64,000 nt of DNA from Sediminispirochaeta smaragdinae DSM 11293. Lineage in GTDB: Bacteria > Spirochaetota > Spirochaetia > DSM-16054 > Sediminispirochaetaceae. The position numbers were made by a program, and so were the translations under genes. Positions within the stretch are counted from its first letter, which is position 1. Each line of letters starts with the position of its first letter. The notes beneath the pieces are model-generated. The model worked only from the letters and a program-made list of their open reading frames with translations. It searched no databases and was not told where the DNA came from. Below, piece after piece: positions 43,186 through 56,018 of the stretch. The DNA is taken from positions 3,410,001-3,474,000 of the forward strand of contig NC_014364.1 of assembly GCF_000143985.1 (NCBI RefSeq), read 5' to 3'.

Positions 43186-43299
<114 letters not shown>

Positions 43300-43348
43300 A
43301 ATAAAAACAAAGCTTATTCACAAAGGTGGAAAGGATTACATGATAATA

Positions 43349-46331
<2,983 letters not shown>

Positions 46332-46436
46332 TATTATCTTGCAATCCTTCCCTATCAGCTATATGACTCCTCGCCTTATAGCTCCCCTGTTAAAGATCAA
46401 TGATTACCCAACGTAAAATAGCCGGGTAATCGTATG

Positions 46437-46510
<74 letters not shown>

Positions 46511-46586
46511 AATCAGAGAAAAGAGGGAAAGGAAGAAGTACCGACGCGTTAGCTCAAAGGATCAGAATGATCTTATCTTTCTTATC

Positions 46587-48129
<1,543 letters not shown>

Positions 48130-50714: not shown

Positions 50715-51311
50715 TTAGACCTTACTAGTCCCACCGGAACGCTCCAAGATAACGACCGTCCTCACATAGGTAAGAAAGGAAGCCACCGAAGCAAAAGCGG
50801 CAATCAAAAAGATAACAAGGCTGATATTACGTAGGGTCGGCAGTGCCCCCGAAGAGGGAGAAAGACGTTCGGTAAAGATGGTCGCCAATCCGATAATTCC
50901 CGAAAAAGCGTAAAAGACCGCCTTGATCTTTCCCCATATCGACGCAGCCATCACAAAACCCTTCTTGATCATGTACATGCGGAGAAAGGTGATGGCAAGT
51001 TCCCGGTAGATAAGGATGACAAAGATCCATACAGGCATCAAGCCTACTGCAGAAAAACAAATAAAGTAGGTCATCCGACTAAATACATCGGCAAAGGGAT
51101 CAAGAACCTTTCCTATGTCGGTTACAAGATTTCGGGATCGGGCAATATGTCCGTCGAGCACATCGCTGGCTTCAATGCCGAGAAAAATCACAAGAAGTAC
51201 AAAAGCCGAAACCATCTCCCATCTCCCCGTCCAGACAGGCAGAAAAAAAACGATAAAATAAAGTGGAGAAAGGATAAGCCGAAAAACGGTCAATTTGTTT
51301 GGTAAATTCAT
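50715..51311 (-). CDS. pgsA: CDP-alcohol phosphatidyltransferase (PgsA type)
   Basis: 198 residues, about five TM helices. The family signature DG-x2-AR-x8-G-x3-D-x3-D is seen in 'DVLDGHIARSRNLVTDIGKV' continuing to 'LDPFADVFSR'. The best fit is CDP-diacylglycerol-glycerol-3-phosphate phosphatidyltransferase, the first committed step of phosphatidylglycerol synthesis; other CDP-alcohol enzymes share the motif. It has its own promoter at 51318-51346. Confidence 0.87.
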   Translation of the reverse strand: MNLPNKLTVFRLILSPLYFIVFFLPVWTGRWEMVSAFVLLVIFLGIEASDVLDGHIARSRNLVTDIGKVLDPFADVFSRMTYFICFSAVGLMPVWIFVILIYRELAITFLRMYMIKKGFVMAASIWGKIKAVFYAFSGIIGLATIFTERLSPSSGALPTLRNISLVIFLIAAFASVASFLTYVRTVVILERSGGTSKV

Positions 51312-51363: not shown

Positions 51364-51651
51364 TTACAAGTTAATCACTTCCTGCCTAAGGAAACGACGC
51401 TCCTCCGGTTTGCGAGAAAAACTGTACAGATGATGGTATCCACTGCGAAGACGCTTTCTAATCCGCGTCCGGATCATTCGCTCTTTCTCTTTCCCAGTGC
51501 TGAACACGTATTCACGCTCACGTCCTGCTCCGGGTGCATTCCCCCACAAAATGGAAAGAGAGTACGGGGAAAAAAGGTTTCCCTGCCGATCATGGAGGGT
51601 ATAGTATCGTGTCCTTCCGGACCGGTCGGCTTTATACAAGACAACAATCAT
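51364..51651 (-). CDS. Small WGR-like domain protein
   Basis: 95 residues from the ATG at 51651. The body 'GRTRYYTLHDRQGNLFS', then 'LSILWGNAPGAGREREYVF' and 'TRIRKRLRSGYHHLYSF', follows the WGR pattern (a Trp-Gly-x motif, a basic turn, then K/R-x-x-GY). In other bacteria WGR domains bind nucleic acid. It is the last gene of the thrS operon. The start is uncertain: the frame is open further upstream inside the membrane-protein gene, and no good Shine-Dalgarno is visible. Confidence 0.5.
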   Translation of the reverse strand: MIVVLYKADRSGRTRYYTLHDRQGNLFSPYSLSILWGNAPGAGREREYVFSTGKEKERMIRTRIRKRLRSGYHHLYSFSRKPEERRFLRQEVINL

Positions 51652-51655
51652 TGTT

Positions 51656-52417
51656 TCATCTATCGGCAGGCAGAGATCGAATATCAACCACAAAGCGATC
51701 GGCTTTTTTGAAAACGTAGACGCCATACTGCTCTAGCGTTCGAGCTTCGGCGGATTCAGAGAGCTCGGAGGATAGAGACCATAGTCTCAATCTTGTCATC
51801 ATCCTGGCAGCGGGCGACGAAAACGGCACAGGGGCATCGACGTCTTGCGAAGTAACAAAACCTGTGGAAGGCAGAAAAAAAAGGCGGGGATCGGACCTCA
51901 GCCGACGATAGGGGATATATATCCGCCCATCATCAAGACGGAAGAGAGCGGAGCGAAGGAAGCCGCCTGACAAGAGATCAACATCAACGGTTTGTTCGGT
52001 AAGACGAATCAGGCGAAACTCGCCTAACACCCTTCCGTCGGCAAGAGGAAACCAGCCGTCAAGATCATGGTAAAGCTGAAGGCTGAAGATGAGAAGCAGG
52101 GCAAGCAGAAGAGGAAGCAGTACCTGCCACCCCAACCGAACGAGCATCCCGAGGGCAAAAACAGCAAGACAGAAAAAGAGCAGAGACTTGTCCCACAGCA
52201 CCTGAGGCAGAGAAACAAAAAAGATGGCGCATAGCAACGATACGGCGGCAAGGATAAGAAGAAAGAGTGAAAGCGTAATCGAGATGTGCCCGTTTTTTCG
52301 TCCTGAAAACCGCCGCAACAAGGCCGCCGGAAGGATTCCGACGGCGCATCCGAAGAAAAAAGAGGCAAAAAAGAGCCAGGTATAAATATTTTCTGCAACA
52401 AGCGTGCTATAGCCCAT
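51656..52417 (-). CDS. Membrane protein of unknown function
   Basis: 253 residues from the ATG at 52417, which overlaps the carboxypeptidase stop by 11 bp. Four probable TM helices occupy the first 110 residues ('WLFFASFFFGCAVGILPAAL', 'LSLFLLILAAVSLLCAIFFV' and others). A soluble domain of about 140 residues follows, with 'LADGRVLGEFRLIRLTEQTV' and 'LEQYGVYVFKKADRF'. No family is recognised. Confidence 0.7.
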   Translation of the reverse strand: MGYSTLVAENIYTWLFFASFFFGCAVGILPAALLRRFSGRKNGHISITLSLFLLILAAVSLLCAIFFVSLPQVLWDKSLLFFCLAVFALGMLVRLGWQVLLPLLLALLLIFSLQLYHDLDGWFPLADGRVLGEFRLIRLTEQTVDVDLLSGGFLRSALFRLDDGRIYIPYRRLRSDPRLFFLPSTGFVTSQDVDAPVPFSSPAARMMTRLRLWSLSSELSESAEARTLEQYGVYVFKKADRFVVDIRSLPADR

Positions 52418-53885
52418 ACAAACCAGTATACTTCTCCTCGAGGTATCTGGCAAAGTAAGAAGCTTGTACCGGCTCTCCGCTTACCGATGTCATAAGCTCA
52501 TTCGCCGTACGGGCCGCCCCATGGCGATACACCTTTTCCGTCAACCAGGAAAGCGGCACATGAAAGTGTCCTGCAGCTATCTGCTCATCAAGGTCAGAGA
52601 CCTCCTTTCGCAGAGCGGCAAAAAGCTGGGCACCGTAAAGATTCCCCAGGGCATATGTAGGAAAGTAACCAAAGGCCCCTCCGGACCAATGGGTATCCTG
52701 CAGCACACCCACGGCATCTGTTTCAGGCCGGAAGCCCAGAAGCTCTTCACTGAGGGTGTTCCACGCCTCGGGAAGATCACGTAAAGACAGATCTCCAGAA
52801 AGCATCTTTCGCTCAAGCCGATAGCGCAGAACAATATGCAATCCATAGGTGACCTCATCGGCCTCCGTACGAATATCCGAGGGCCTCACCTTATTCACGG
52901 CAAGCAAAAAACGCTCAAACGGAACGGAAGAGAGATTTTCGGGGAAAATCTCCTGCAATCTGGGATAAAAATAACGCCAGAAGGCAGCACTTCTTCCGAT
53001 GATATTCTCCCAGGTTCGTGACTGCGATTCGTGGATTCCGTGACTGCTGCCCTGCCCCAGGATAGTGCCGACATACGAGGGAGCAACCCCCTGCTCATAG
53101 AGGGCATGACCGGTCTCATGGATTGTTCCGAAAATGGCCGTTTTGAATGCCCCCTCATCATACTTCGTGGTTATACGAATATCGTCGTCACCGGGACGGA
53201 TGGTAAAGGGATGCACGGATTCGGCAATCGTTCCGCGGGAAAAATCAAAGCCCATCGCTTCGGATACCTCACGGGAAAAACGACGCTGCCCCTCCTCGGG
53301 ATAGTGGAGGAAGAGAAAACTATCGTCGACAGCTTTTTTATCGAGAATCCTGGCCAGTAAGGAGGAAAGAAAGGAGCTCATCTCGTCGAAAAGACGGTCA
53401 ACGGTGGAACTTTTCATCCAGGGCTCATACTCATCCAAAAGTGCATCATATCGATCATCTTCCCAGCCGATGGCGTCGGCCTTTTCCCGAGTCAGCTTCA
53501 AGAGCTCTTCAAGGTAGGGCCGAAAGGCTTCATAGTTGTTCTCCTGTTTGGCATGACGCCAGGCAAGCTGGCCTGTGGTCTGTTGTTTGGCCAATTCCGT
53601 CACCAGCCGCCGGGGAAGCCTCACTGCCCGATCGTGCTCCCTCCGCAGCATTCTGACCAGCGGGTCGGAGGTATCAGCCCCTTCGAGAAGCGAAGCCATT
53701 TCCTCTCCGGCTACCCTGTCGTGAACCATTCCTTCGATAAGCGATATCTGCTCGGCACGACCGGTGACCGCCTTTGGCGGCATACCGGTCTCCTGGTCCC
53801 AGGATAGAAGCTGAGCGATCGAATCAAGGTTTCTGATTTCTCGATCCAGGTCTTGCAACTGTGTATATGGTTCATTATGGGTCAT
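52407..53885 (-). CDS. M32 family metallocarboxypeptidase
   Basis: 492 residues. The zinc motif 'FGTIHETGHALYEQGV' (HExxH) is followed by the third ligand in 'GIHESQSRTWENIIGRS', and the N-terminus has the usual 'LLSWDQETGMPP'. It matches thermostable carboxypeptidase 1 (Taq type) in length and motifs. It releases C-terminal residues from peptides in the cytoplasm. Its ATG overlaps the thrS stop (53882-53885), so it is under the same T-box. Confidence 0.95.
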   Translation of the reverse strand: MTHNEPYTQLQDLDREIRNLDSIAQLLSWDQETGMPPKAVTGRAEQISLIEGMVHDRVAGEEMASLLEGADTSDPLVRMLRREHDRAVRLPRRLVTELAKQQTTGQLAWRHAKQENNYEAFRPYLEELLKLTREKADAIGWEDDRYDALLDEYEPWMKSSTVDRLFDEMSSFLSSLLARILDKKAVDDSFLFLHYPEEGQRRFSREVSEAMGFDFSRGTIAESVHPFTIRPGDDDIRITTKYDEGAFKTAIFGTIHETGHALYEQGVAPSYVGTILGQGSSHGIHESQSRTWENIIGRSAAFWRYFYPRLQEIFPENLSSVPFERFLLAVNKVRPSDIRTEADEVTYGLHIVLRYRLERKMLSGDLSLRDLPEAWNTLSEELLGFRPETDAVGVLQDTHWSGGAFGYFPTYALGNLYGAQLFAALRKEVSDLDEQIAAGHFHVPLSWLTEKVYRHGAARTANELMTSVSGEPVQASYFARYLEEKYTGLYGL

Positions 53886-55639
53886 ACATTTTCCTTTGAA
53901 GCGATAATCTTCAGGGTCTGAGCGATAAACTCATCAAGGGCAAGACCATTAACCTGTTCGCCGTTTCGTTTTCTCACCGATACGCTTCGGCTTTCCTGTT
54001 CCTTTTCACCCAGAATCAGCATGTAGGGGATCTTCTCTTTCTGGGCATTGCGTATCTTTGCATTCATTCTGCTGTCCGAAAGATCGACATCCGCACGAAG
54101 GTCATGGCGGCGAAGCTCGGTTTCAACCGATTTTGCATACGCTTCAAAGGCAGGAGCCACGGGAATCACCTGGACCTGGACAGGAGAAAGCCAGACAGGA
54201 AAGGCCCCGCCGTAGTGCTCAATCAGCACCCCAAAAAAGCGCTCAATAGAGCCAAGTAAGGCACGATGCACCATGTAGGGCTGCTTTTCCTTGCCGTCAT
54301 GATCGACAAAGGTCATGCCGAAGCGCTTGGGTTCGTTGAAGTCGAACTGAACCGTTGAGAGTTGCCACGAACGGCCGAGGGCATCTTTTACCTTCAAATC
54401 GATCTTCGGACCATAGAAGGCACCGCCTCCTTCATCAACCTCGTATGCAAGCCCCTCGGCCTCAATTGCCTTTTGCAGTGACGCTTCGGCCAGTTTCCAC
54501 TGTTCCGGATCGCCCACAGCCTTTTCGGGCCTGGTGGAGAGATAGGCCTGAATATCGCTAAACCCGAAGGCTCGCAGCATATGGAGGCTAAAGCGCAGCA
54601 CCTCCAGGATTTCGTCCTCCACCTGTTCAGGGGTGCAAAAGATGTGGGCATCGTCCTGGGTAAAGCCCCTTACCCGCATGAGACCGTGAAGGGTTCCGGA
54701 CTTTTCATAGCGATAGACGGTACCGAGTTCCGCCCAGCGAAAGGGCAGTTCACGATAAGAGTGCTTATTGGTTTTATAGATCATGATATGGAAGGGACAG
54801 TTCATCGGCTTGGCATAGTAGTTGGCCTTATCCATCACCATCTCGGGATACATCCCCTCGGCATAAAAATCGAGGTGTCCAGAGGTCTCCCATAGCCAGG
54901 ATTTTCCGACATGAGGGGTATAGAGCAGCTCATAACCGTTCTTAAAGTGCTCATCCTTCCAAAAGGTTTCGATCTGGTGCCTGATTCTGGCCCCCTTGGG
55001 GTGCCAATAGACCAATCCCGGACCGGCCTCCTCGTGAAGGCTGAAAAGATCGAGTTCCCTTCCCAGTTTTCGATGATCCCGCTTTTCCATCTCTTCCAAA
55101 TGCTTCAGATAGAGACGAAGCTCCTTGGGATTCTCCCAGGCGGTTCCGTAGATACGGGTAAGCATGGGGTTGGTTTCCTTCCCGCGCCAATAAGCCCCGG
55201 CAATGGAAAGGAGCTTAAAGGCCTCGGCATTCAGATCGGCGGTATTTTCCACATGGGGTCCCCGGCAGAGATCGGTAAAGCTATCCTGCGAATAGAGGGA
55301 CACCTCTTCACCTTCGGGAATCGCCTTCAAAAGTTCGACCTTGTACTGCTCGCCCTTACCGCTGAAGAGTTTTTCAGCCTCTTCCCGACTAATGACCTTT
55401 CGCTGAAAGGGATGCTTTCCCTTGATGATATCCTTCATTTTGGCTGATATCTTCTCAAGATCATCGTTTGCCAAAGGTTTTGGAAAGTCGAAATCATAGT
55501 AAAAGCCGTTTTCAATGGCGGGGCCGATAGCCACTTTTGTTCCGGGGAAAAGATCCACGACAGCCTCGGCCATAACATGGGCCATAGAGTGGCGAATTCT
55601 GTGCAGTTTTTCTTCCTGGGATAATCCTTGCAACGACAT
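53882..55639 (-). CDS. thrS: Threonyl-tRNA synthetase lacking the TGS domain
   Basis: 585 residues from the ATG at 55639 (AGGAGG 7 bp upstream). The frame continues upstream through the T-box, but that part is regulatory. The protein starts at the N2 editing domain ('HSMAHVMAEAVVDLFPG' with HxxxH, and 'CRGPHVENT'). The class II core has motif 2 'FRWAELGTVYRYEKSGTLHG', the zinc ligands ('MNCPFH', 'DDAHIF', 'VHRALLGSIERF') and the anticodon-binding domain. The TGS domain (about 60 residues in E. coli) is absent, as in Borrelia. Confidence 0.97.
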   Translation of the reverse strand: MSLQGLSQEEKLHRIRHSMAHVMAEAVVDLFPGTKVAIGPAIENGFYYDFDFPKPLANDDLEKISAKMKDIIKGKHPFQRKVISREEAEKLFSGKGEQYKVELLKAIPEGEEVSLYSQDSFTDLCRGPHVENTADLNAEAFKLLSIAGAYWRGKETNPMLTRIYGTAWENPKELRLYLKHLEEMEKRDHRKLGRELDLFSLHEEAGPGLVYWHPKGARIRHQIETFWKDEHFKNGYELLYTPHVGKSWLWETSGHLDFYAEGMYPEMVMDKANYYAKPMNCPFHIMIYKTNKHSYRELPFRWAELGTVYRYEKSGTLHGLMRVRGFTQDDAHIFCTPEQVEDEILEVLRFSLHMLRAFGFSDIQAYLSTRPEKAVGDPEQWKLAEASLQKAIEAEGLAYEVDEGGGAFYGPKIDLKVKDALGRSWQLSTVQFDFNEPKRFGMTFVDHDGKEKQPYMVHRALLGSIERFFGVLIEHYGGAFPVWLSPVQVQVIPVAPAFEAYAKSVETELRRHDLRADVDLSDSRMNAKIRNAQKEKIPYMLILGEKEQESRSVSVRKRNGEQVNGLALDEFIAQTLKIIASKENV

Positions 55640-55660: not shown

Positions 55661-55720
55661 AAAAAAACCCCGAACTTCACGCCCCTTCCTGCATGCAGGT
55701 AAGGACGAAAAGCCCGGGGC
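55661..55720 (-). terminator. Conditional terminator of the T-box leader
   Basis: The 3' arm TTCGGGG followed by TTTTTTT (55661-55667) pairs with a CCCCGG block (55714-55720) that also forms the antiterminator helix. This is the usual mutually exclusive arrangement. Confidence 0.75.
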
Positions 55721-55980
55721 CCTTCGCGGTTCCACCTTACTTCCGTTTCGATCTTTTTCACTTCGATCAAAACGGCACTTCATTGATCCGTTAACGCCGG
55801 AAATACGGCAGAACATACTTGAAGAGAATCTACAGACCCCTTCGTTCCGTCTGCGGCTCAGGAGGGGTTTTCACGAAGGACCGACAGGAACCTTTCAGCC
55901 GGCGGGCAATAACAATATACCCGACAGGGTCCCCTCTCTATAGGTCAAGCCACTTTCGCTACTCGTCTCCATCAACGCCT
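55661..55980 (-). promoter_or_regulatory. T-box leader (tRNA-Thr-sensing riboswitch) of the thrS operon
   Basis: Minus-strand features in order: a stem I start with GATGGAGACGAGTAGCG; a likely specifier ACC within GTGAAAACCCC (55864-55874); the T-box block GGTGGAACCGCG (55725-55736) followed by AAGGGCCCCGGGC; then a terminator stem closing CCCCG..CGGGG before seven T (55661-55667). Together these match the T-box consensus. When uncharged tRNA-Thr binds, the antiterminator forms and thrS, the peptidase gene and the two downstream genes are read. The specifier assignment is tentative. Confidence 0.9.
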
Positions 55981-55989
55981 TATGTATAG

Positions 55990-56018
55990 AATATGCTGTT
56001 TTCTCCGCCGACTGTCAA
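55990..56018 (-). promoter_or_regulatory. Promoter of the thrS operon
   Basis: Minus-strand TTGACA (56013-56018), 17 bp, CATATT (55990-55995). The -35 box lies over the stop codon region of the upstream hydrolase. Confidence 0.65.

Follow-up and report, generated by a model that had tools for sequence, protein, structure and literature searches.

T-boxes are usually viewed as a device of Gram-positive bacteria, apart from a scatter of outliers. The threonyl-tRNA synthetase gene (thrS) of the spirochaete Sediminispirochaeta smaragdinae lies behind a leader with the hallmarks of a T-box, and the locus raises the questions of whether this leader attenuates transcription in response to threonine supply and how a spirochaete came to carry it. 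We analyzed the leader within a window of 64,000 nucleotides (the whole stretch of DNA under study), in the complete genome, and across 393 sampled Spirochaetota genomes. We put at roughly 93% the probability that the leader at 55984–55698 is a canonical class I T-box for threonine that attenuates transcription, and that an early ancestor of the Spirochaetia already had a T-box-thrS unit, which was inherited within the class and repeatedly lost. The elements of the leader are as follows:

55990..56018, minus strand: promoter-like site TTGACA-17-CATATT, a consensus match only (1 found versus a shuffle mean of 0.3)
55698..55984, minus strand: T-box leader comprising stem I, a linker, stem III, and the antiterminator, from the RF00230 match
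55866..55868, minus strand: specifier codon ACC (Thr) in the specifier loop of stem I, context GAAAACCCCTCCTGAG, from the Rfam alignment; the same context occurs in nearly all spirochaete thrS leaders
55740..55778, minus strand: stem III hairpin (CCGUUUUGAUC ... GAUCGAAACGG), model structure from the RF00230 match
55699..55740, minus strand: antiterminator GUAAGG-[UGGAACC]-GCGAAG...CUUUUCGU-CCUUAC, which is the lowest-energy fold while the transcript is short (−18.4 kcal/mol)
55731..55734, minus strand: UGGA of the T-box bulge, complementary to the U73 + CCA end (5'-UCCA-3') of tRNA-Thr
55661..55719, minus strand: intrinsic terminator, a long GC-rich hairpin followed by U7, whose 5' arm includes the 3' arm of the antiterminator (−35.2 kcal/mol alone)

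A cmscan search under an E-value threshold matched the leader to the full RF00230 model (model positions 1–219) at 55984..55698 on the minus strand, with 86.3 bits and an E-value of 2.6e-19. This score is just below the Rfam gathering score of 93 for the family, so that a default Rfam scan misses the leader; run on the window, such a scan returned rRNA and tRNA entries only and no T-box. In the whole 4,653,970-base single-contig genome the leader is the sole RF00230 match. Its fold is more stable than those of all 100 dinucleotide shuffles (z −3.4), and stem I contains the AGUA and AGAGA motifs. The earlier note had called a T-box here from a GGTGGAACCGCG block, the stem I motifs, the terminator and the TTGACA-17-CATATT site, all of which are present where it placed them; the RF00230 search that it proposed gave a significant match, though under the gathering score, and folding showed the alternation whose absence, like the absence of a model match, it had counted against a T-box. 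The −35 element of the promoter-like site and the stop codon of the alpha/beta-hydrolase gene upstream overlap, and the site (56018–55990) places the predicted transcript start about where the T-box model begins.

Stepwise folding indicates that the antiterminator is the optimal structure until the 3' arm of the terminator emerges, at which point the terminator becomes far more favourable (−42.4 kcal/mol for the 84-nt fragment that includes it). The pairing of the antiterminator arms is conserved: the arms are complementary at 9–10 of 10 pairs in 61/62 spirochaete thrS leaders as compared to 11% of shuffles of the downstream sequence; in real and shuffled sequences alike, the 3' arm was placed where it paired best. 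Within the first three pairs both sides change together, for example from T-A to C-G and from A-T to G-C. A terminator overlapping the antiterminator arm was found in 41/62 of these leaders. The three tRNA-Thr genes of the S. smaragdinae genome (GGU, UGU, and CGU) all have the discriminator base U73, and therefore the bulge 5'-UGGA-3' pairs fully with 5'-UCCA-3'. The leader combines a significant covariance match, a fitting specifier, a UGGN bulge complementary to the cognate tRNA, mutually exclusive antiterminator and terminator, and a synthetase gene behind it, which are features of a class I T-box.

From these elements we infer a transcription start, tRNA binding, a response to charging, and an operon extent. 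RNA polymerase would start near 55984, and stem I would read the GGU anticodon of tRNA-Thr via the ACC specifier. When the tRNA-Thr is uncharged, its UCCA end would pair with UGGA (55734–55731) and hold the antiterminator, allowing read-through into thrS, the M32 peptidase gene behind it, and perhaps the genes that follow. When the tRNA carries threonine, this pairing would be blocked, the terminator at 55719–55661 would form, and transcription would stop at U7.

It is extremely improbable that the leader is a chance resemblance or a decayed T-box. Its score is under the curated gathering threshold, but the E-value is 2.6e-19, every functional nucleotide is intact, a congener with a 99% identical ThrRS (L041) also carries a T-box, and the element is conserved across 62 genomes; conservation and complementarity already contradict this reading. 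We also consider it very unlikely that the leader acts on translation, by controlling ribosome access, with the hairpin before thrS incidental. This idea draws on relatives that have no terminator and that carry a GUAC by the ribosome-binding site able to pair with the bulge, and a translational T-box has been proposed for actinobacterial ileS (Seliverstov 2005, PMC1262725), a possible parallel only for some of the terminator-less spirochaete relatives. The window's leader, unlike the ileS T-box, has a strong terminator with U7 and shows no sign of pairing with the Shine-Dalgarno (SD) sequence: the variable base of its UGGN is A, it has no GUAC, pairing of its core with the SD is no better than in cross-controls (z −0.1), and we found no sequestered SD replacing the terminator. 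Transcription attenuation is the reading that we retain for this leader.

The relatives with GUAC have a bulge that departs from the usual rule. As TBDB reports (PMC7778990), pairing between the variable base of UGGN and the tRNA discriminator is usual in T-boxes, Trp being an exception with G-U. U73 is present in tRNA-Thr(GGU) in 56/56 spirochaete genomes examined, whose T-boxes have as variable base N 20 times A, 7 times G, 28 times U, and once C. Half of the T-boxes therefore face a U-U mismatch while the specifier is still ACC, and co-variation of the bulge base with the discriminator across spirochaetes was rejected because U73 is constant while N varies. This combination offers a natural test of the need for discriminator pairing. 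A GUAC lies beside the SD in 18/32 leaders with N = U and in 0/32 others (Fisher p = 2.6e-7, with kinship ignored); tree-aware contrasts comprised too few pairs for significance. Among the f8, f4, and f13 genomes of the tree set, GUAC occurs in 12/15 with a T-box and in 0/7 T-box-less relatives, and GGAGGUAC occurs also in a few T-box-less genomes. GGUACC can pair with GGUAC, and the fold predicted for one leader (L020) connects the T-box core with both the SD and the start codon. Several N = U leaders have no terminator and some have one. A tentative and rather doubtful explanation is that in f8, f4, f13, f19, and one f3 genome, but not in the window's leader, the UGGUACC bulge serves as an anti-SD strand against the GGUAC/GUACC that overlaps the thrS ribosome-binding site. 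Charged tRNA would then leave the bulge free to block translation, and uncharged tRNA would occupy it. If true, this would account both for the departure of N from the discriminator rule and for the missing terminators in several leaders. Part of the class may use translational control; shared lineage could also explain the GUAC pattern.

The genes behind the leader are:

53882..55639, minus strand: thrS, threonyl-tRNA synthetase of 585 aa (TIGR00418, E 3e-225; Pfam tRNA_SAD, tRNA-synt_2b, and HGTP_anticodon)
52407..53885, minus strand: M32 (carboxypeptidase Taq) peptidase (PF02074, E 2.1e-168), whose start overlaps the thrS stop
51656..52453, minus strand: probable membrane protein of the same gene run, with no Pfam match above cut-off
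51364..51726, minus strand: 120-aa ORF, weakly WGR-like (PF05406, E 0.11, 13.1 bits, below the cut-off of 22)
50715..51311, minus strand: CDP-alcohol phosphatidyltransferase, pgsA-like (PF01066, E 1.1e-32)

The likely thrS start is the ATG at 55639, located behind AGGAGG; a 644-aa ORF was rejected as thrS because its start falls inside the leader. No TGS domain is among the Pfam matches of the ThrRS. The arrangement described in the earlier note, a T-box before thrS with an M32 gene directly downstream, agrees with the overlapping stop and start and with the M32 Pfam match. Its membrane protein also stands, though it belongs to no Pfam family, and its WGR-like protein is reduced to a weak resemblance below cut-off. 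An M32 gene is found behind thrS in 18 T-box loci of the class, and also at L078, where it is 683 nt away; none was found directly downstream of thrS in about 15 T-box genomes. In four family groups (f2, f12, f14, and f17) there are T-box-less genomes that likewise have M32 behind thrS, and this linkage without a T-box weakens the proposal that M32 is part of the T-box unit. M32 is an old neighbour of thrS, and its co-control by the T-box may just reflect its position. That the peptidase releases amino acids, as the note suggested, is a guess. Similar-looking ORFs (judged by eye) to the pgsA-like neighbourhood lie behind thrS in T-box-less spirochaetes too. Elsewhere in the window, a complete, ordinary 16S-tRNA-Ile-23S-5S rRNA operon occupies 43187–48129 on the minus strand.

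RF00230 matches were identified in 72/393 sampled Spirochaetota genomes, 71 of these 72 belonging to the window's class; the match exceeds the gathering score of 93 in 25/393 genomes. A survey of spirochaete thrS leaders and trees, as the earlier note had proposed, placed a T-box before thrS in 62/393 genomes and its synthetases in a single Spirochaetia clade. These thrS T-boxes span 13 family-level groups of one class (f1, f3, f4, f6, f7, f8, f11, f12, f13, f18, f19, f20, and f21). Nearly all of their leaders share the specifier context GAAAACCNCTCC..GAG, hence ACC, as found with a simple text pattern that was not matched in that form in a few (e.g. L040, L052, L053, L063, L066, L070, and L074). 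Its presence in 13 family-level groups, with a matching synthetase clade, makes the threonine T-box an established feature of spirochaetes. T-boxes are missing from many other genomes of the class, for example in group f5 and most of f3. In the T-box-less relatives, including the closest (G256, 76% identity), no T-box motif was found within 700 nt upstream of thrS, and the class is a good case for studying the loss of the system.

The ancestry of the unit was examined with a tree of 103 ThrRS sequences (a quick run of IQ-TREE with SH-aLRT support only, no bootstrap; few Firmicutes included). Nearly all Spirochaetia ThrRS, including every T-box-bearing spirochaete thrS of the tree, fall into one clade (SH-aLRT 96), which also contains one long-branch proteobacterial sequence. 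The window's ThrRS nests within this clade and not among the few Firmicutes in the tree. The presence of the T-box-bearing ThrRS in a single clade points to ancestral inheritance within the class and not to a Firmicutes donor. Parsimony among the spirochaete sequences gives 13 T-box changes, a count that alone cannot separate gain from loss. The simplest and most likely reading is that the class had one ancestral T-box-thrS unit that was lost repeatedly. The earlier note had offered transfer or wider ancestry: wider ancestry is borne out by the 62 genomes, 13 groups, and one ThrRS clade. The data do not support a recent transfer or one from Firmicutes.

An older acquisition of the T-box-thrS unit by a lineage or by the class from another phylum, such as the Anaerolineae (Chloroflexota) or Firmicutes, is quite possible though on the whole unlikely, and it rivals only the ancestry part of our interpretation. 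The nearest ThrRS outside the spirochaetes are those of two Anaerolineae (L081 and L084) with a T-box motif containing UGGA before their thrS, and Spirochaetota outside the class are almost without T-boxes (one genome, and not before thrS). Against this, the spirochaete ThrRS form their own supported clade, which would put any transfer, in either direction, no later than the base of the class; the support joining the Anaerolineae is only 87, and no Firmicutes sequence, few of which were sampled, lies near the spirochaete ThrRS. The Anaerolineae belong to another phylum, their likeness rests on the motif and not on detailed leader structure, and they have no M32 gene behind thrS within 0.4 kb (L081) or 3 kb (L084). 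Chloroflexota could have been partners in a very ancient exchange; inheritance within Spirochaetia from an early ancestor is the reading we prefer. One further ThrRS frame (G007:C12:6377-8074) has a single internal TAG in an otherwise full-length match, possibly an error or a recoded stop.

In its architecture the leader resembles the class I transcriptional T-boxes (RF00230) before thrS in Bacillus subtilis and further Firmicutes, with stem I and specifier, UGGN bulge, and an antiterminator/terminator switch before thrS. It differs in its spirochaete host, in being the one T-box of its genome instead of one of many, in a ThrRS without TGS, and in the M32 gene behind. In Firmicutes, few synthetase genes are under T-box control as regularly as thrS, and the phylum table of the same study lists T-boxes in 0/6 Spirochaetes (Wels 2008, PMC2494555). 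We found no description of spirochaete T-boxes in the open-access literature. A prior listing in Rfam or TBDB is possible, and with 25/393 genomes above the Rfam cut-off, automated annotations of some may already carry the T-box label.

Several T-boxes were observed before genes other than thrS, with gene names in part assigned by eye. In group f9, one (L006, T-box at 1501–1782) has an apparent UAC (Tyr) specifier before a tryptophanase/tyrosine phenol-lyase-like gene (named by eye). Further f9 T-boxes with an apparent UAC specifier (L002, L004, and L005; L003, L075, L076, and L077) stand before a sodium-symporter-like gene, and before an AMP-ligase-like gene that has a folP-like gene behind it (all named by eye). 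Of the T-boxes at L035 and L045, one lies before the gene of an ABC-transporter binding protein and has UGG (Trp) as its apparent specifier, and the other lies before a trpB-like gene. Variant TTTGAGTGGTACCGCGGG T-boxes precede a helix-turn-helix/cupin/AMP-ligase-like gene in group f12 (L010, L049, L065, and L069). The sole T-box found outside the class (L067, genome G030) lies before an aminotransferase-like gene that is followed by a PEP-carboxylase-like gene.
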